Source: a virus
Virus record (IMG/VR): IMGVR_UViG_3300035180_002092
Span: 1-49,482 of that record
Reading direction: 5' to 3' (one strand)
DNA: 49,482 nucleotides
Shown: positions 4,799 to 18,479 of the stretch, piece after piece
Numbering within the stretch: position 1 is the first letter of the stretch
How the letters are laid out: each line of letters starts with the position of its first letter
Made by a program: the position numbers and the translations under genes
The notes under the pieces: model-generated
What the model saw: only the letters and a program-made list of their open reading frames with translations
Database searches by the model: none
What the model was told of the DNA's origin: nothing

Positions 4799-5745
4799 TT
4801 ATATTTTATTTATTTCTTTCTTTCTTCTATCTAATTGCGTTTGTAGTTGGTCAAATTCTTGCTCCCAAATTGTTACTAATTTATAACCAGATCTAATTAA
4901 TCTATTTTCTCTATCCATAGTATTTTTATATAGATTCCCGAAACTTATATGATTACCATCATTAATAGCGTCTGATTTATATATATTGGGATTTCCATGC
5001 CAATAGTCATCATAAAACTCATAAATAGTATTTGTTATTGGATCAAAACCATCTACAATATACCTTCTTCCATTAATATGAAGAATTACAGTTCTATGAG
5101 AATAATCATTTGGGATTCCAATATAATCTAGCCAATCATTTTCTTTTTTAGATTTGCCGGACATACATGCCGGACAATTTTGTTTATTATGAATATGATT
5201 TGATGGCGATTGATTAAATTCACCATGTTTAGGGCATATAATTGTTATATTATCACGCATTGTTGTAAAATATGATTTAGAATAATCATATTTATTATTA
5301 TGAACTTCTGATGCTTTTTTATAAAAAATTGTAAGTCTTTTCTTGCTGATTTTTTACATTTTGGGCACCCTTGCTCAGCATTTATATGTTTATCTGGAAC
5401 TTGAATAAAATCGCCATGTATTTTGCATGTAATTATTATTGGGGTTTTTATACCGGCAAATACCACCTTATCATATAAAAATTTATTTTTATGTATTTTT
5501 TGCTTTTTCTAAAAATGTTTCAGAATTATATTTAATTCCATTACAAACTGAGCATCCTCGTTTATAACAAATATGATCTTTCGGTTTAATAGCAAAATCA
5601 CCGTGTTTTTTTTACATATCAAAACAACATCTGTTTTACTATCAATGTAATTAATTTTTGAGTAGTCAAAAATATCACCAAAAATACATTTTGATTTATT
5701 TATAAATTCTTCTTGTGTTTGTTTTATTGGTATTATATTTTTATT
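4799..5745 (-). pseudogene. Decayed zinc-repeat endonuclease (DUF723-like repeats plus Vsr-like nuclease domain)
   Basis: The ancestral protein had three repeats of the form KYDYSK..Y....T.I.CP.HG.F...P..H....GCP.C, followed by a nuclease-like domain with EFYDDYWHGNP and a C-terminal LIRSGYKLVTIWE. Domains of this kind occur in phage homing-type endonucleases. The reading frame is broken at three A-runs: eight A at 5606-5613, six A near 5495-5505, and six A at 5315-5320. No start codon remains, although AGGAG is still present near 5747; an ATA stands where ATG would be expected. The last 153 codons (4799-5260) remain open and contain one zinc repeat and the whole nuclease domain, so a fragment might still be made. 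A second decayed copy is at 8139-8866. Confidence 0.75.
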
Positions 5746-6657: not shown

Positions 6658-8064
6658 TCAGTCATCTAATAGATTCATTTTATCAGAAATATCATCTGGA
6701 TCTCTATCATAAAATTCTGTATTATCTTCATCTATTTTATTGTCGATTAGTGTTCCACATGCTAAGTTTTTTATAAGACTACCTGAGCCTAAACTTCCAT
6801 CTCTATTTTTGATTACATGATATTTCATATCAGGCATTTGTTTTTCATTAGCTCTAGTTTCAATTTGAATTGCAATATTAGCATTCTGCATTATAAGTGC
6901 AGATCTTCCAACTCTATGAAGCCCTATTTTATCTTCTTCTTTTGCTCCCTTAGTTCTATTTAACTGAACGGCACTTAAAGTAATACAATTATGTACTCTT
7001 GAAAATTCATGCGTAAGTTCTGCAATTTTACCCAATTTTAACCAATCGTCCATTTCTGAGCCTTCATAGCTCATTAATCCCAAATAATCTATCACGACAA
7101 TTTTAGGGTCATATAATGTTTTAGCTTCCTCATAAATAGTTTCTATGCTCTGCATTGTTGCGCCACGAGGGATATCTATTATTTCAAATTGGTGTGGATA
7201 TCTAGTAATGAATTTTAGGGCTTTTTTTAATTTTATTGCTTCATCTTGATTTAATGATGCATTACGAATAAGCTTAGAAGGATTACCAGATAATCTAGAC
7301 AAGACACGATTTAAACATGGTTTAAATGGCATTTCTAATGAAAAATATAATACGTTATTACCTCCAACAAACTTATCATTTTCTGTATCAAGCGTATTAT
7401 TTTGCATCCACATTTGGATAGCCATATTCATTAGGAGCATTGATTTTCCGCCGCCGGACTCTCCGCCAATTAGAACCAATTCTCCGGGTCTTAAGCCGTC
7501 AGTAACATGATCTAAATATGAATATCCTGTGCGTAATCCAGCGCCAAAATCTGGATTATTCATTTTTGCGTTATATTCTTCCCTGAAGATTGGTACGGCT
7601 TCTTTTAATGTTTTTCTTTCATATGTTTTTGTTTGGCTTAAACTTTTTATATTTTGAACTGTTTTTTGCAATTCCATTACAGTTTTAGACACATCAATAT
7701 TTGCTGGGTCTAATTTAATTAAAGATTCCTTTATAGATGATATTTGTTTTTCTGCAAAACGTTTTTTTAATTTTTCTAGATCATGCTTAAATTCTCTATC
7801 ATCTATTTTAATGTCATTTAGAGAGTTCCATGTTTTCGTAACACTATCTATTAATTTATCATTGCTGCCTTTTGATAATTTTTCAGTTATCACCCTAAGG
7901 GTTGGTATATCTTTAAATGTTTTAATGTATCCAATTATTAAATTAGAAAAATTCCATACTTCGGGCGCAAATAATTTAGAATCACACTCATTGGCAAAAT
8001 CAAGTGCATTTTTTTTATTTGTGATAAGATATTTAAGGATTATTAGATCTATACTAGTACTCAT
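6658..8064 (-). CDS. Replicative DNA helicase, DnaB/gp41-like
   Basis: Hexameric 5'-3' helicase that unwinds DNA ahead of the phage fork. The C-terminal RecA-type core has Walker A GESGGGKS (residues about 201-208), Walker B IVVIDYLGLM (322-331) and the QLNR sensor motif (367-370). The N-terminal 150 residues are helical, as in DnaB family proteins, with a hinge before GYSYLDHVTDGLRPGEL. At 468 residues it is of normal DnaB length. A GAAAGAAGA stretch precedes the ATG and an extended -10 promoter lies about 40 bp upstream. The DnaC-like loader gene lies upstream in the same orientation, separated by an endonuclease remnant, consistent with a helicase/loader pair. No intein is present. Confidence 0.92.
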   Translation of the reverse strand: MSTSIDLIILKYLITNKKNALDFANECDSKLFAPEVWNFSNLIIGYIKTFKDIPTLRVITEKLSKGSNDKLIDSVTKTWNSLNDIKIDDREFKHDLEKLKKRFAEKQISSIKESLIKLDPANIDVSKTVMELQKTVQNIKSLSQTKTYERKTLKEAVPIFREEYNAKMNNPDFGAGLRTGYSYLDHVTDGLRPGELVLIGGESGGGKSMLLMNMAIQMWMQNNTLDTENDKFVGGNNVLYFSLEMPFKPCLNRVLSRLSGNPSKLIRNASLNQDEAIKLKKALKFITRYPHQFEIIDIPRGATMQSIETIYEEAKTLYDPKIVVIDYLGLMSYEGSEMDDWLKLGKIAELTHEFSRVHNCITLSAVQLNRTKGAKEEDKIGLHRVGRSALIMQNANIAIQIETRANEKQMPDMKYHVIKNRDGSLGSGSLIKNLACGTLIDNKIDEDNTEFYDRDPDDISDKMNLLDD

Positions 8065-8103
8065 TTTGTCTTCTTTCTAAAATTATTTTCCCCACATAAT
8101 AAG

Positions 8104-8112
8104 ATTATATCA
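8104..8112 (-). promoter_or_regulatory. Candidate extended -10 promoter for the helicase gene
   Basis: Minus strand TG at 8112-8111, one base, then TATAAT at 8109-8104, a perfect extended -10. No convincing -35 at the usual spacing. The helicase ATG is about 40 bp downstream. Confidence 0.4.
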
Positions 8113-8138
8113 AAAATCTATAATTAAGCGTTCTTTGT

Positions 8139-8866
8139 TCATTGTATTTTAATATAATGTTCCAAAACTTTTTTGGTTACTTTATTAATTTCATTGCAAT
8201 CATAAACTTCAGGATTACCGTGCCAAAAATCACCATAAAATTCATAAATTATATTAGTAATAGATCATAAGCATCGGGCTTAATTATTTTGCCGCTAATA
8301 ATTAATCTCTTATATATATATTCTTTTGGGATATTTATTTTATTAGCCATTCAGTCCCAATTTTAGATACTATTTTTTTCTACATTTGGGACAGTCAGAT
8401 CCACACATATGAAAATATGGTGATTGATTAAAATATCCGTGCACCGAACAAATTATTTTAATTTAATGTAAATTGTTTTAGAATAATCATAAAAATTTTT
8501 ATCTATTTTTATTGCTTCTATATTGTATTTTACGCCAAAGAACCAATTAAACGTTCATGTAGCGCCAGCTTAAATAAGCAGTGTATTTTACAAATTATTG
8601 TAACTTTATCTACGTATGTTGTTTTAGAAAAATCATGTCAATTACTACCAACATAAGGCTGGTGGTTTGTCTCTGGCTATCCGAGACATTTTACAGCATA
8701 ATTGACATCCAGATCATTTTAAATGATGATTATGCGAAAAATCACAACGCTTATAACATGTTATAATTATTTTAGAATTAGATTTAAAATAAATTGATTT
8801 ACTATAATCATACTTATTTTTATGTACCTTGTTTGCTTTTTCAATAAATTATTTAGTTGTTAGTTT
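8139..8866 (-). pseudogene. Second decayed zinc-repeat endonuclease copy
   Basis: Readable fragments in different frames match the 4799-5745 remnant. They include HKNKYDYSKSIYFKSNSK then ITCYK, a GCQLC zinc pair, DFSKTTYVDKVTIICKIH, a further YDYSKTIYI repeat, VHGYFNQSP..H..GSDCPKC, and the nuclease core EFYGDFWHGNPEVY. Several stops and frame changes interrupt it and no start is left. It ends without the C-terminal DRENRL..GYKLVTIWE part. A 74-bp structured element (8635-8708) is inserted immediately after the first zinc repeat and has removed about 25 codons. The gene lies between the helicase and its putative loader. This explains the otherwise gene-free 8.1-8.87 kb stretch. Confidence 0.7.
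8635..8708. mobile_element. Solo structured element resembling the 3' end (omega-RNA/right end) of an IS200/IS605 tnpB
   Basis: A 74-bp element bounded by a perfect 10-bp inverted repeat (ATGTCAATTA at 8635-8644 and TAATTGACAT at 8699-8708). Inside are two hairpins, ACCAAC-ATAAG-GCTGGT and TGTCTC-TGGCTATCC-GAGACA. It matches about 49 of the first 55 bases of the element at 17255-17322, which there overlaps the stop codon of a tnpB pseudogene. No tnpB sequence remains here. It sits inside the second endonuclease remnant. Identity as a transposon end is inference from the tnpB linkage of the other copy. Confidence 0.6.
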
Positions 8867-9577
8867 TTATTTGGCATTTTTTATTTTTCTGTAATCATTG
8901 GAAAATATACAAATATTTTCCATTCCATCATAAAATAAACTTCCTATGCTCTGTTTTAAATTATTAGGGAAACTTTCAACTATATTAGGACTATTAGTAC
9001 ATATTAGAGTAGGCAATTTATTTTGTTTTCTTGTTCTAAATATATTTTCAAAATTTTTAATAAATAATTCACTAGATGATTCTGATGAAAAAAACCTAGG
9101 ATCTATTTCATCTATCACTAAAAAATCCACCATTGTTAATTCTTTTTTTGCAATAAATTTTTCTTCATTTGAAGATTGTGTCAAAGTTGCTATTATATTT
9201 GATATATCAGAAAAATGGCAGGTATATCCCTTTTGGCTCGCTTTTTTTAAAATACATGTAGCAGCCATTGTTTTACCAACACCATGTGGTCCGCTAAAAC
9301 AAATTGATTTTCCATTTAAATATGAAGATTTTAAATCAGAAATATATTCGTTATACTTTGCAAGTAGCCTTGGGTCACCCTTAAAATCTCTTTCCATTTT
9401 TAATGACCAATATTCAATTGGAATATTACTTTCCGCATATCTATTGATTGCGATTAACTTTGTGGTTTTTGCTTGTAAATCATCTGTTGATGATTCTATG
9501 GTTGATAGCCAATCCAATAATTTCTTTTTAGGAATATTATTCAGTGCGTTGCTTCGTGAAAAATCCTGGGTACTCAT
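8867..9577 (-). CDS. DnaC/IstB-like AAA+ helicase loader
   Basis: A 236-residue ATPase expected to deliver the DnaB-type helicase (6658-8064) to DNA. Walker A GPHGVGKT is at residues about 96-103, Walker B DFLVIDEID at 151-159, and LPTLICTN is a sensor-I-like strand near 200. The N-terminal 90 residues are helical, with ARYLL-type DnaC similarity weak (RLLAKYNEYI). I chose the ATG at 9577 because AAAAGG precedes it at good spacing; an in-frame ATG at 9595 lacks this. It overlaps the end of the Sm-like gene by 41 bp in another frame. A separate transposase partner of IstB type is absent, so a replication role is more likely than transposition. Confidence 0.85.
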   Translation of the reverse strand: MSTQDFSRSNALNNIPKKKLLDWLSTIESSTDDLQAKTTKLIAINRYAESNIPIEYWSLKMERDFKGDPRLLAKYNEYISDLKSSYLNGKSICFSGPHGVGKTMAATCILKKASQKGYTCHFSDISNIIATLTQSSNEEKFIAKKELTMVDFLVIDEIDPRFFSSESSSELFIKNFENIFRTRKQNKLPTLICTNSPNIVESFPNNLKQSIGSLFYDGMENICIFSNDYRKIKNAK

Positions 9578-9974
9578 ATTTAACCTTTTTTGCATTTCCG
9601 ATATGATGACTCTTCAATTTATTTGATATTATTTGTCTGTCGGCTTCATTAATTAAAATTTTTAATTCTGCCAAACGCTTATCTCTTAATGGATCTCCAC
9701 TTGGCTGATTGTACACTCTATTAAACTCAGAATTTAATTCTGACTTATAATCATTTGTATCTAATTTTGGTTCAATTTTATTTTTTTCAGCAACGGAGTC
9801 AAGCATAACTTTGATCAGCATTATATCGGATTGTGGGCGTTTTATTATTATATAACTTTTTTCGCCTATTGATTTTAATATCATTGACTCGTCATTCCAT
9901 TCTTCAACAATACCCTCTACAATAGTAGAATTAACTAACAGTATTTTAACATGTTGCCCGGCTTCTTGTTTCAT
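9537..9974 (-). CDS. Protein with an Sm-like N-terminal domain
   Basis: A 145-residue protein. Residues 5-55 read as a five-strand Sm-like barrel: GQHVKILLVNSTIVEG, then GIVEEWNDESMILKS and YIIIKRPQSDIML, the spacing seen in Hfq/LSm domains where a bent sheet binds RNA. Residues 60-125 are charged and helical (DKRLAELKILINEADRQI), followed by a basic stretch. AAGGAAACT precedes the ATG. It overlaps the helicase loader start by 41 bp, so the two are probably translated together. It could bind RNA or be a phage replication/transcription accessory protein. The fold call rests on pattern only and no catalytic motif is present. Confidence 0.5.
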   Translation of the reverse strand: MKQEAGQHVKILLVNSTIVEGIVEEWNDESMILKSIGEKSYIIIKRPQSDIMLIKVMLDSVAEKNKIEPKLDTNDYKSELNSEFNRVYNQPSGDPLRDKRLAELKILINEADRQIISNKLKSHHIGNAKKVKYEYPGFFTKQRTE

Positions 9975-13310: not shown

Positions 13311-14669
13311 TTATTTGCGACGATCGACTACGCCATTAAGCAATTTACCAAATGAAGATGATTTTATTGCAATTTTTTCTTTTATTTTCTGTGCAGCCGA
13401 TACTGTTTCATTAGCACTAGTTTCCAGCTGAAGTGTTAAATTTCTAGAGTCATCTTTTGATTTTACTTTTGATTGAAGTTCTTTTGTTTCATTTTTTAAT
13501 TGATCTATCCTGGAAGATGGTAACCCTAATCCAGAAAACATTGAATATACTTTAACAACATTATCTGGCGAGTCTATAACATACATTCCTTTGAATACTC
13601 CCTTTGGATTACCACAAAGGTCATTAATCATACTAGTGGCATAATTAACACTAGATGCAGGAATGCTATCCCAAACTGATTTATTTGCGGTAACTATAAA
13701 ACCAACATATTTTGATTGTTTTAAATCGAATCCTTCAGCTAAAAGATTTCTGGAAAGATTATTAATTACCGCTTCAGCAATAGCGGTATCTTCAGTATAA
13801 TTTTCTACTATGAATTCACCATAGACTGACATACCTTCACCATCAATAAATACTTTTGAAAATTCCATTGGATCTAATGCTTTTGTAGAAGATGGCATAG
13901 ATGACAATGTATTAAACATATCTATGGGATTTACTATTGCTTTATTTGCCACGCCATAAAATTCAATTTGGCTTATATTATGGTATATGGCTTCAATTTT
14001 TGCATTATCAACCACAATTAAATTATTCACTTTTTTAGTTTGAGTTAATCTGGATAATTTTGATAATGTCTCTAATGCATTAGATTTAGTCTGAGCATCT
14101 TCCGTATCCATTGGAAGTATAGTCATAACTACAAGTGGTTTGCCCATTTCTGATAAAATATCGACTAATGTTTCACAAGAGCCTGCTCCAGATCCGCCGC
14201 CCAAACTTAAGCATAATACATTTACTTGGGAATTTCCAATCTTATCATTTATAAGTTGGATTATTTCTTCTCTGTGTGCTTCGGCAGCAGCTTTTCCGAT
14301 TTCTATCTCTTTTGCAGCTCCACCTAAACCATATTCTAGTAATAATTTGTTAGCATCTGGTACATCAATATATTTTAAATCCTGCATTGCAGTATTAATG
14401 ACGCACGTAGCATAACCAAGTTTACAAAAAGTCTCGGCTATTCTAGATCCGGCTTGACCAGAGCCTATTATTCCGAGTGATAAACTTCTTTCTTTATTTG
14501 AAACTATCTTTGCAGCCATCTTTGTCTCCTGTTGTTTTGCTTGACTCTTTGCTTTTAATGCCGATAATTTATTTAAATCTACTGAGTCTTCTTTTTTTAC
14601 TTTCACATTGGATATATCATCTATTATATTCTCTGATGAATCATCTTCGATAATTGATGTCGCTGACAT
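13311..14669 (-). CDS. Divergent FtsZ/tubulin-family GTPase
   Basis: A 452-residue protein with the tubulin-fold nucleotide site: GSGQAGSRI (residues about 69-77, matching GVGGAGGN of FtsZ), the G-box LGGGSGAGS (156-164), and NLIVVDN (216-222). The segment ALDPMEFSKVFI (264-275) aligns with the FtsZ T7 loop NLDFADVKTVM and keeps one Asp and a Glu in the second acidic position. It has a 60-residue N-terminal extension and a C-terminal coiled-coil-like tail with a basic end (VVDRRK), as in phage TubZ/PhuZ-type proteins that polymerise by tail contacts. AGGAGAATAA precedes the ATG. It likely forms filaments that position or partition phage DNA; polymerisation itself is inference. Confidence 0.82.
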   Translation of the reverse strand: MSATSIIEDDSSENIIDDISNVKVKKEDSVDLNKLSALKAKSQAKQQETKMAAKIVSNKERSLSLGIIGSGQAGSRIAETFCKLGYATCVINTAMQDLKYIDVPDANKLLLEYGLGGAAKEIEIGKAAAEAHREEIIQLINDKIGNSQVNVLCLSLGGGSGAGSCETLVDILSEMGKPLVVMTILPMDTEDAQTKSNALETLSKLSRLTQTKKVNNLIVVDNAKIEAIYHNISQIEFYGVANKAIVNPIDMFNTLSSMPSSTKALDPMEFSKVFIDGEGMSVYGEFIVENYTEDTAIAEAVINNLSRNLLAEGFDLKQSKYVGFIVTANKSVWDSIPASSVNYATSMINDLCGNPKGVFKGMYVIDSPDNVVKVYSMFSGLGLPSSRIDQLKNETKELQSKVKSKDDSRNLTLQLETSANETVSAAQKIKEKIAIKSSSFGKLLNGVVDRRK

Positions 14670-16050: not shown

Positions 16051-17025
16051 TTATAATCCTACTCTAATTCCGCTCATTATTGAAATGTCTCCATTAAATC
16101 CAACATGCAAAGAAGGGGCGATATATGTATTATTCATTAATGGTATATGTTTGCCAATATTATATGAAAATGGAGTTATTACTGCCTGTACTTTTTGAGC
16201 TACAGTTCCATACCCTACTCCAGCAGACAATATCGTAAAATCTGGAGAATTTTTATACATGCCGTGACTAAATACAGATATACCAACGGTTGGCGTAAAT
16301 TCACCTTTTACTTGACTTATATTTATTCCACCATCTGCGCCTATATTTAATCTAGGATTCCACCATGACCATTTTGCTTGAGGATAAACCTGTTCTGTTT
16401 GTGCTGTGGCAATTTTAATATCATATGTCTTATCTGCAACTTTTACTGATACCTTATTATAAACATATGATCTCTGATTCTCATCTGTTCCTAAAACATT
16501 AGTTATACGATATTCTCTTGCTAATATATCTATGCTCCATGGTAATTTTTGCCATGCAGAAAAACCTATTTTACCTATTGGCACTTTTGTATCGCCAAAA
16601 TCTTCATTAATATCTAAATTTTGCTGCCTGAACATATACCCATATGGGTCTGGGTTTGTTGGATCTATTGGATTTGGATTAACTGGACCAGTAGTTGTAA
16701 TAGGAACATTTATTATATGCTGACCTTTACTTGTTACAAGTATAACATTAACCGCAGTAACTTCGGCATGCAATTTATCTAAATCATCCTGTATTACTTT
16801 TAAATTAAGACCATTTGCTTTTATTATTTTATCAATATCATCTTTTGTGATATAACTATTTTGACTTCGCATAATATTATCAGCCAATTCTTTTTGCAAA
16901 ATAACTTGACTCTCAATAGCTAATTGTCGATTAGAAATTTCCACTTGCTTATATACTATAAAACTTAAAACTCCAGTTAATAATATCGTGCCAAGAAAAA
17001 TTAATACTTTATTTAAAATTGACAT
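16051..17025 (-). CDS. Membrane-anchored protein with coiled coil and beta-rich C-terminal domain, unknown
   Basis: A 324-residue protein. Residues 5-25 (VLIFLGTILLTGVLSFIVY) form an N-terminal transmembrane anchor. Residues 28-95 are coiled-coil-like, 95-135 hold a Pro/Asn/Asp-rich linker (NPNPIDPTNPDPYGY), and 140-225 look like a beta domain. The last 100 residues alternate hydrophobic and polar residues (NIGADGGINIS, PTVGISVFSHGM, TILSAGVGYG, APSLHVGFNG, IMSGIRVGL), as in a small outer-membrane beta barrel. GGGGT lies six bases before the ATG. It occupies the space between two pieces of a broken GT2 gene, next to an IS605-like hairpin, so it arrived by insertion. A spanin-like or exclusion role is possible but not shown. 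Confidence 0.7.
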   Translation of the reverse strand: MSILNKVLIFLGTILLTGVLSFIVYKQVEISNRQLAIESQVILQKELADNIMRSQNSYITKDDIDKIIKANGLNLKVIQDDLDKLHAEVTAVNVILVTSKGQHIINVPITTTGPVNPNPIDPTNPDPYGYMFRQQNLDINEDFGDTKVPIGKIGFSAWQKLPWSIDILAREYRITNVLGTDENQRSYVYNKVSVKVADKTYDIKIATAQTEQVYPQAKWSWWNPRLNIGADGGINISQVKGEFTPTVGISVFSHGMYKNSPDFTILSAGVGYGTVAQKVQAVITPFSYNIGKHIPLMNNTYIAPSLHVGFNGDISIMSGIRVGL

Positions 17026-17115
17026 TACTTACCCCATTTATTAACAAATATTTTTCTAGCGTTCTTATATAACTTGTATGTATGTAGATTTAATTACCTT
17101 TCTGCGTCACATTCA

Positions 17116-17254: not shown

Positions 17255-17322
17255 GTCAATTACCACCAGCACAAGGCTGGTTGCTTGTCTCTGGCTATCC
17301 GATACATTTAGATGATTGACAT
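17255..17322. mobile_element. Structured tnpB 3' end element, tnpB-linked copy
   Basis: Outer arms GTCAATTA (17255-17262) and TGATTGAC (17313-17320) enclose the hairpin ACCAGC-ACAAG-GCTGGT and a second stem TGTCTC-TGGCTATCC-GATACA. The tnpB pseudogene stop codon (17297-17295) lies in the second stem-loop. In IS200/IS605 elements the 3' end of tnpB overlaps the right end and the omega RNA, which fits this arrangement. A solo relative is at 8635-8708. Confidence 0.6.
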
Positions 17323-17784
17323 ACAGCCTGCTCTGCCTTCTGCATTTTTGTAGCAGTAGAGATGAGGTTATTGCTGATATTCTTTGTAGCATTCACATCG
17401 GTATGCTCTCTGTATCTATAACGATCACACGAGTAATGCGCCGAATTTCTTTTCAATCTCTCCGCAGTTAGAACATTTCTGACTGGTATATCGAGCATCT
17501 ACTTTAACAATTGACTTGCCTAAAGCTTGCGCCTTGTAAGTAATTAACTGTTATAATTGGGAAAAGCTTCAATTAGATAACCACTTATTTAATACCTTGC
17601 CTTTTGCCTTTTGCCTTTTGACTTTTGTTTTCGAATACCTTTCAAGTCTTCAAGCACAAAAATATCATACGGCATACCGACTAACTGCTTTGTGATCTTA
17701 TGATTAGTATCCAAACTAAACCTCTTCTCATAACCGATCAAGCTCTTTAATTTACGCTTGGTAGAATGAGTACCTTTTGTTTGA
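17295..17784 (-). pseudogene. Decayed TnpB (RuvC-like, IS200/IS605 accessory nuclease), C-terminal half
   Basis: Pieces in order: KGTHSTKRKLKSLIGYEKRF, then DIFVLEDLKGIRK with the RuvC-II Glu, NKWLSN, the zinc-ribbon strand YTSQKCSNCGE, YSCDRYRYREHTDVNATKNI with the RuvC-III Asp, and a C-terminal KCIG before TAG. At least three frame changes and internal stops break it; the RuvC-I half is absent. It begins immediately after the stop codon of the methyltransferase gene, so one end of the insertion or a later deletion lies at that junction. It cannot make an active nuclease. No tnpA is present. Confidence 0.82.
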
Positions 17785-17786
17785 AT

Positions 17787-18479
17787 TTATTCATTTATCT
17801 TTAATTCCCATACAAACTGATATACTTCTGCATTATCTCTTTTTTTCATTAAATGAGCGACCATTGGAGGGACATCATCATAACTATTATTAAACTCTGT
17901 ACAATTAACTGAGTTTAACAAATTAAAAGAAGATACTATTTTAAATCCACAACTGTCTACTATTTTTTTTACACTATCTTCTGTGAAAAATTTAATATGA
18001 GTATTGTCTAGTAAACCAACATCAGTATAATTGAATTTATTATTCCACAAATCAATTAATACAGAATTATGACCAATATTTGGTATTGAAATCCATACTG
18101 ACCCATTTTTCGCTAATATTTTTTTACTTTCTTCTAGAATATTATTAGAAAATCTTACATGCTCCAATACGTCAGCAAATATAATATAATCTAAATTATC
18201 GCACCCACAGTTTTTTAAATTATTAAAAAAATCTGGATTTTCTATATTTCCATCTTCTCCTGCAAAAAACATATCTGCCCATTGTACGGCATGTTTAATA
18301 GCCTGAACATCAATTTCTGCTATAAAAGTGGTGCAATGTAATTGCTCTTTTAAATATTTTGTCATTCTTCCATGAGCACAGCCAACATCCAATACTCTTG
18401 TGCCCTCTTTAATATTTCTAAGTATAACAGAATTGGAATTATCTGTTGTCATGTCTAGTTCAAAATCATATTTACTCAT
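17787..18479 (-). CDS. SAM-dependent class I methyltransferase
   Basis: A 230-residue Rossmann methyltransferase. SAM motif I is VLDVGCAHG (residues 29-37), the acidic motif II is around FIAEIDVQA, and motif IV is YIIFADVLEHV (near 97-107), the pattern of small-molecule or sugar methyltransferases of the UbiE/Methyltransf_11-23 group. No target-recognition domain or DNA-methylase DPPY motif is present, so DNA methylation is unlikely. GAGATTAT precedes the ATG; the gene follows the GT4 gene by six bases. With the glycosyltransferase it probably caps or decorates a glycan. Its 3' end abuts a tnpB pseudogene, but its own C-terminus looks complete. Confidence 0.82.
   Translation of the reverse strand: MSKYDFELDMTTDNSNSVILRNIKEGTRVLDVGCAHGRMTKYLKEQLHCTTFIAEIDVQAIKHAVQWADMFFAGEDGNIENPDFFNNLKNCGCDNLDYIIFADVLEHVRFSNNILEESKKILAKNGSVWISIPNIGHNSVLIDLWNNKFNYTDVGLLDNTHIKFFTEDSVKKIVDSCGFKIVSSFNLLNSVNCTEFNNSYDDVPPMVAHLMKKRDNAEVYQFVWELKINE

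Follow-up and report, generated by a model that had tools for sequence, protein, structure and literature searches.

A palindromic omega-RNA-like sequence in a phage DUF723-repeat gene as the very probable deletion scar of an IS605-type transposon

In ISDra2, TnpB contacts stem 1 of the omega-RNA, which stacks on a pseudoknot, and the protein can also use an omega-RNA expressed from a separate plasmid (PMC8612924, PMC10097598). IS605 elements insert beside a fixed motif and lack terminal inverted repeats, as do the PATEs derived from them (PMC3119063, PMC8612924); for some PATEs of Haloquadratum, fusion of the left and right ends at a shared hairpin has been proposed as the origin (PMC3119063). 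A search of the available literature for stand-alone TnpB omega-RNAs returned nothing to the point. The locus considered here, a 74-base palindrome at 8635-8708, had been described in a first-pass annotation as an omega-RNA-like element with terminal inverted repeats and no transposon gene, which might have moved in trans or been kept as a guide-RNA-like scaffold. The element is real, but it is an ordinary remnant of a known kind.

The palindrome and the gene around it

The window, by which we mean the whole stretch of DNA analysed, is a 49,482-base IMG/VR virus record with a GC content of 29.9%, and it encodes a DnaB-like helicase, a DnaC-like helicase loader and a PhuZ-like tubulin. It is probably a fragment of a jumbo phage, since the loader genes closest to its own sit in phage records of 354-394 kb; the PhuZ-like tubulin gene, too, points to a jumbo phage. 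Annotated phages and plasmids, searched by DNA similarity, gave no match, and neither did the Rfam families when compared with the window. By window position, the relevant features are:

6658-8064, minus strand: DnaB-like helicase, the gene downstream of the insertion
8382-8518, minus strand: broken DUF723 unit 3, frameshifted (DUF723 profile, E 4e-8 for the second half)
8545-8636, minus strand: broken DUF723 unit 2, DFSKTTYVDKVTIICKIH..., directly after the right end (DUF723 profile, E 1.4e-4)
8621-8636, minus strand: ATGATTTTTCTAAAAC, 16 nt of DUF723 sequence that would be in guide position if the scaffold were transcribed (from the position relative to TAATTGAC in relatives and from ISDra2)
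8637-8644, minus strand: 3' strand of the GUCAAU/AUUGAC pairing, the last bases before the would-be guide (found in all relatives)
8637-8689, minus strand: transposon-derived part, the 3' portion of the tnpB/omega-RNA right end, (AAA)TGTCTCGG to TAATTGAC (aligned with the right ends of G001, G002 and G006)
8647-8663, minus strand: hairpin 2 (H2), the right-end hairpin, ACCAGC/GTTGGT with one G-U (fold and covariation)
8668-8688, minus strand: hairpin 1 (H1) of the omega-RNA, TGTCTC/GAGACA (fold and covariation)
8696-8710, minus strand: GGATGTCAATTATGC, Gly-Cys-Gln-Leu-Cys, the last codons of a DUF723 repeat (DUF723 profile)
8696-8866, minus strand: broken DUF723 unit 1, KLTTK*FIEKANKVHKNKYDYS...HHLK*SGCQLC (DUF723 profile)
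8867-9595, minus strand: DnaC-like helicase loader, the gene upstream of the insertion
13311-14669: PhuZ-like tubulin gene
17255-17320, minus strand: second omega-RNA/right end, 3' of the tnpB remnant, with hairpin 1 partly broken
17259-17801, minus strand: tnpB remnant with stops and frameshifts, the N-terminal ~200 residues missing (tblastn, E 1.2e-60)

The arms ATGTCAATTA (8635-8644) and TAATTGACAT (8699-8708), with 54 nt between them, are perfect 10-bp inverted repeats, as had been claimed. By itself such a repeat is weak evidence in this window: with loops of at most 100 nt, 35 perfect 10-bp inverted repeats are present, where a first-order Markov model gives 15.4. The weight of the case therefore rests on homology. 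The palindrome has one other copy in the record (17255-17326, 84% identity, E 1.4e-17), and there are exactly two occurrences of the 18-mer TTGTCTCTGGCTATCCGA in the window, where 0.01 would be expected. The reported match to the 3' end of the 17.3-kb tnpB holds down to the stop bases: the TAG common to both window copies is an in-frame stop for the tnpB remnant. The intact relative (L006) has no stop at this point, its tnpB frame running on to a TAA inside TAATTGAC. The omega-RNA-like nature of the element is also borne out, as the covariance model R1 matches its transposon-derived part at E 2.9e-16; a fold of -23.6 kcal/mol (z = -4.1) is predicted for the minus strand, and the right-end hairpin and the terminus TAATTGAC are kept, with 8637-8663 matching the right ends of relatives. 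There is indeed no tnpB beside the solo copy; the window encodes no functional TnpB, its tnpB being broken, and a Y1 transposase gene, tnpA (PF01797), which adjoins tnpB in the G002 relative, is absent from the window record. Two exact-pattern matches in other records are chance, one (L003) lying inside a long ORF without tnpB context, the other, in a Geobacteraceae contig (L004), having no comparable right end around it.

The surroundings of the palindrome do belong to another gene remnant, as the first-pass annotation held, and this consists of DUF723 repeats spanning 8065-8866 between the loader and helicase genes, which abut or overlap in three related phages (L010, L011, L012). Since the unit next to the element escaped the DUF723 model of Pfam, we built our own profile from 128 phage DUF723 units. 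All 59 columns of this profile align, at E 2e-17, with the sequence that lies upstream of the element on the minus strand; the last column falls exactly at the left arm, and the alignment ends HHLK*SGCQLC. GGATGTCAATTATGC contains the entire arm 8699-8708, the left arm on the minus strand, which on this alignment reads in register as DUF723 coding sequence. The arms are therefore not terminal repeats of an inserted unit, as had been supposed; judged by the relatives described below, they are the two strands of a conserved RNA pairing. Part of the left arm could still be transposon-derived, given a junction at TGTCAAT followed by small indels, because it matches the 5' strand of the omega-RNA at nearly the right spacing. 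On the other side, the right flank of the solo copy is the next DUF723 unit, so that the right-end piece sits in place of a DUF723 linker; in intact units, the distance from Cys-x-x-Cys to YDYS is mostly 21-28 aa. If TTTAT is set before the right flank, the sequence reads in frame as LYDFSKTTY, but Leu is rare at that position, being found in 1 of the 128 intact units. A search for an uninterrupted version of this exact gene found none. More DUF723 repeat units, some of them frameshifted, lie on the minus strand at 5165-5670, downstream of the helicase gene region.

The omega-RNA fold in relatives and in the solo copy

Relatives of the tnpB were found on the phage contigs L005-L009 by searching with its C-terminus. 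The element of G002 (L006/L088) is complete, comprising a TTTAT motif, a left-end hairpin (GATCTCTTGCCAAG, directly following TTTAT), a divergent tnpA (PF01797, E 6.5e-39), a tnpB of 377 aa (TNB domain, E 2.4e-22) and a right end that finishes in ...TAATTGAC; this right-end architecture recurs in copies of G001-G006. The TnpB of G003 (L007:2059-3267) carries an in-frame tandem repeat of (S)APQELRS within its coding sequence.

In complete copies, a hairpin (stem 1, e.g. GGCUG...CAGCC) holds GUCAAU in its loop; this strand pairs with AUUGAC, the last bases at the 3' end, and two hairpins lie between the pairing strands. By analogy, the counterparts in the ISDra2 omega-RNA would be its stem 1 and pseudoknot. 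No relative lacks the 3' strand of the pairing, and a few have a single substitution in it; in the solo copy it makes up most of one of the arms noticed earlier. Across stem 1, the pseudoknot, H1 and H2, 12 of 25 pairs show double changes, and 31 covarying cells are observed against 9.8 in shuffles, none of 500 shuffles reaching any of the measures; in slid controls, pairing drops to 24-50%. In distant copies, the hairpin sequences are replaced and the fold is retained. The proposed G-C to G-U wobble at a variable position is real (A2 columns 61/69: GC 9, AU 3, GU 2). Further copies and covariation, which the first-pass annotation had suggested looking for, are present in related phages, and the comparison yields a covariation-supported omega-RNA model for phage TnpBs.

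In the solo copy, H1 and the outer pairing are intact and one pair of H2 is broken; the GUCAAU/AUUGAC pairing forms, though its 5' strand is DUF723 sequence. What has gone is stem 1. It has 5/5 pairs in all copies on an uninterrupted tnpB 3' end; the solo copy reaches 3/5, a value seen more often than any other at random positions of the window. Stem 1 appears in the predicted fold of the G001 scaffold and is absent from that of the solo element. From GTCAAT to TTGAC, the solo copy measures 70 nt, its 4 extra nt lying beside the arm; of the 12 other first-family copies (G000, G001, G002, G006), ten measure 66 nt and the remaining two 67 and 62 nt. No left end of the transposon, tnpA or tnpB body remains either: neither a TTTAT insertion motif nor a left end precedes the element, and a left end with its hairpin at the insertion motif (TTTAT followed by GATCTTATGCCAAG) has no match in the window within 3 substitutions. 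A weak left-end-like match at 16976-17027, overlapping an ORF start, was put down to chance.

Derivatives without tnpB in related jumbo phages

Related jumbo phages carry derivatives of these elements that have lost tnpB in whole or in part:

G001 and G006 (L214, L215, L220, L221, L224, L227, L229, L231-L233, L235, L239, L241): candidate 47-nt elements, most beside a TTTAT-like motif
G006, ~334 kb, 161 kb, 242 kb (L080, L079, L078) and 7 kb, 340 kb (L083, L086): elements with internally deleted tnpB
G004, 94030-94124, 120027-120121, 127326-127420 (L255, L253, L254), also in G005: ~350-nt protein-less elements

The 47-nt candidates, about 13 in number, begin with GATCTTATGCCAAGAAAACCACCAGC directly after TTTAT and end in GCTGGTGGTAATTGAC; they look like left and right ends fused at the hairpin common to both. 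A second family in G006, in which TTCAT is followed by GAAAACCTCGCAAGG..., has internally deleted tnpBs with the breakpoints 62/284 in three copies and 44/310 in two. Since these breakpoints are shared at different sites, the deleted forms seem to have moved, suggesting movement in trans after the deletion. In G004 and its apparent duplicate record G005, three elements of ~350 nt lack both tnpA and tnpB. They occupy different sites, and each has a left end, a short conserved interior, stem 1/pseudoknot and right end, that is, the complete fold; we regard them as candidate protein-less omega-RNA elements. Two further related elements lie at 118772 and 126332 in G004. Rfam families gave no match to the protein-less elements, only a tRNA near one of them. 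Unlike the solo copy, the two protein-less classes examined in detail begin at a left end beside an insertion motif.

It is possible, though rather doubtful, that related jumbo phages keep populations of protein-less IS605 elements with the full stem 1/pseudoknot/right-end RNA, which move and recut empty sites by means of TnpA and TnpB supplied in trans; the window element would then be one of their members, now decayed. The earlier idea that phages keep RNA scaffolds of TnpB systems may hold for these tnpB-less derivatives, and does not hold for the solo copy. Jumbo phages with many such copies are a place to ask whether non-autonomous omega-RNA elements persist through TnpB in trans, a question already known and little tested, and the set as a whole merits more attention than the solo copy.

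Origin of the solo element and comparison with known systems

The solo element is very probably the deletion scar of an IS605-type transposon, a right end stranded in a broken DUF723 gene. Homology, the conserved fold, the DUF723 left arm and the absence of stem 1 and left end can be read from the alignments and predicted folds; the original insertion, the route of the deletion and the loss of function we infer. The target of an IS605-type element, with the Y1 transposase TnpA and the RNA-guided nuclease TnpB, would have been a DUF723-repeat gene that is flanked, in a jumbo-like phage, by the genes for the helicase loader and the helicase. A later deletion would have taken out the linker between DUF723 units together with the left end of the transposon, tnpA and the body of tnpB. 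About 53 nt of the right end, with two omega-RNA hairpins and the TAATTGAC terminus, would have remained, joined to the codons for Cys-x-x-Cys in the DUF723 unit before it. As TGTCAAT is present both in the tnpB omega-RNA and in the DUF723 unit, the deletion probably proceeded via microhomology at this sequence, or annealing near it, which would explain both the in-register junction and the perfect inverted repeat at the ends of the remnant; alternatively, the junction may lie at AAATG and the arms match by chance. The insertion may also have been short from the beginning, with a left end already joined to the omega-RNA and lost later. Such derivatives exist in G006 (G006:19595-19733), but nothing in the window tells their decay from the loss of a full-length element, and we consider this variant of the deletion scar unlikely, if far from negligible.

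In an intact system, TnpB would bind RNA of the right-end region, and the bases beyond TAATTGAC would guide the recutting of empty sites; at the solo locus, the would-be guide is DUF723 sequence. A scaffold retained after the loss of tnpB could in principle direct a TnpB supplied in trans against uninterrupted DUF723 alleles: the two hairpins and the outer pairing still form, sequence is present at the guide position, and TnpB accepts an omega-RNA from a separate plasmid. However, the solo copy has no stem 1, which TnpB contacts in ISDra2, and it has lost the scaffold further upstream; its spacer exceeds that of the standard copies by 4 nt, the only tnpB of the window is broken and the flanking gene is itself decaying, which together make this proposal of the first-pass annotation very improbable. 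Given the missing stem 1 and the broken tnpB, the remnant most likely no longer guides TnpB. Its other proposal, that the 74 bp are a small non-autonomous element bounded by its own 10-bp inverted repeats and moved in trans, draws on the perfect arms, the compact fold and the apparent movement in trans of tnpB-less derivatives in related phages. It is very improbable all the same: the left arm is in-register DUF723 coding sequence, neither the window nor any of eight related phage records has a copy with the same two ends at another site, IS605 elements and PATEs have no terminal inverted repeats, the fixed motif and left end are wanting, and 10-bp inverted repeats are common in this window. 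As transposon debris, the solo element matters little in itself, and its case shows that a fusion of host gene and transposon can mimic a palindromic mobile unit.

Finally, we would like to place the deletion scar beside the systems it resembles. Like the IS200/IS605 right ends that give rise to TnpB omega-RNAs (reRNAs), e.g. in ISDra2 (PMC8612924, PMC10097598), it consists of a tnpB 3' end and a right-end hairpin, and in its complete relatives the final scaffold bases, next to the guide, pair with a strand from the stem 1 loop, as in ISDra2-type omega-RNAs; it differs from ISDra2 in having no stem 1, left end, tnpA or intact tnpB, and the insertion motif of this phage family is TTTAT instead of TTGAT. 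With the PATEs, the palindrome-associated transposable elements of Haloquadratum (PMC3119063), it shares descent from IS605 without tnpA or tnpB, but a left end and a bounding insertion motif are absent from the window copy. MITEs are likewise short, free of a transposase gene and equipped with inverted repeats, whereas the window copy has neither true terminal inverted repeats nor a target duplication nor a second copy with the same ends.
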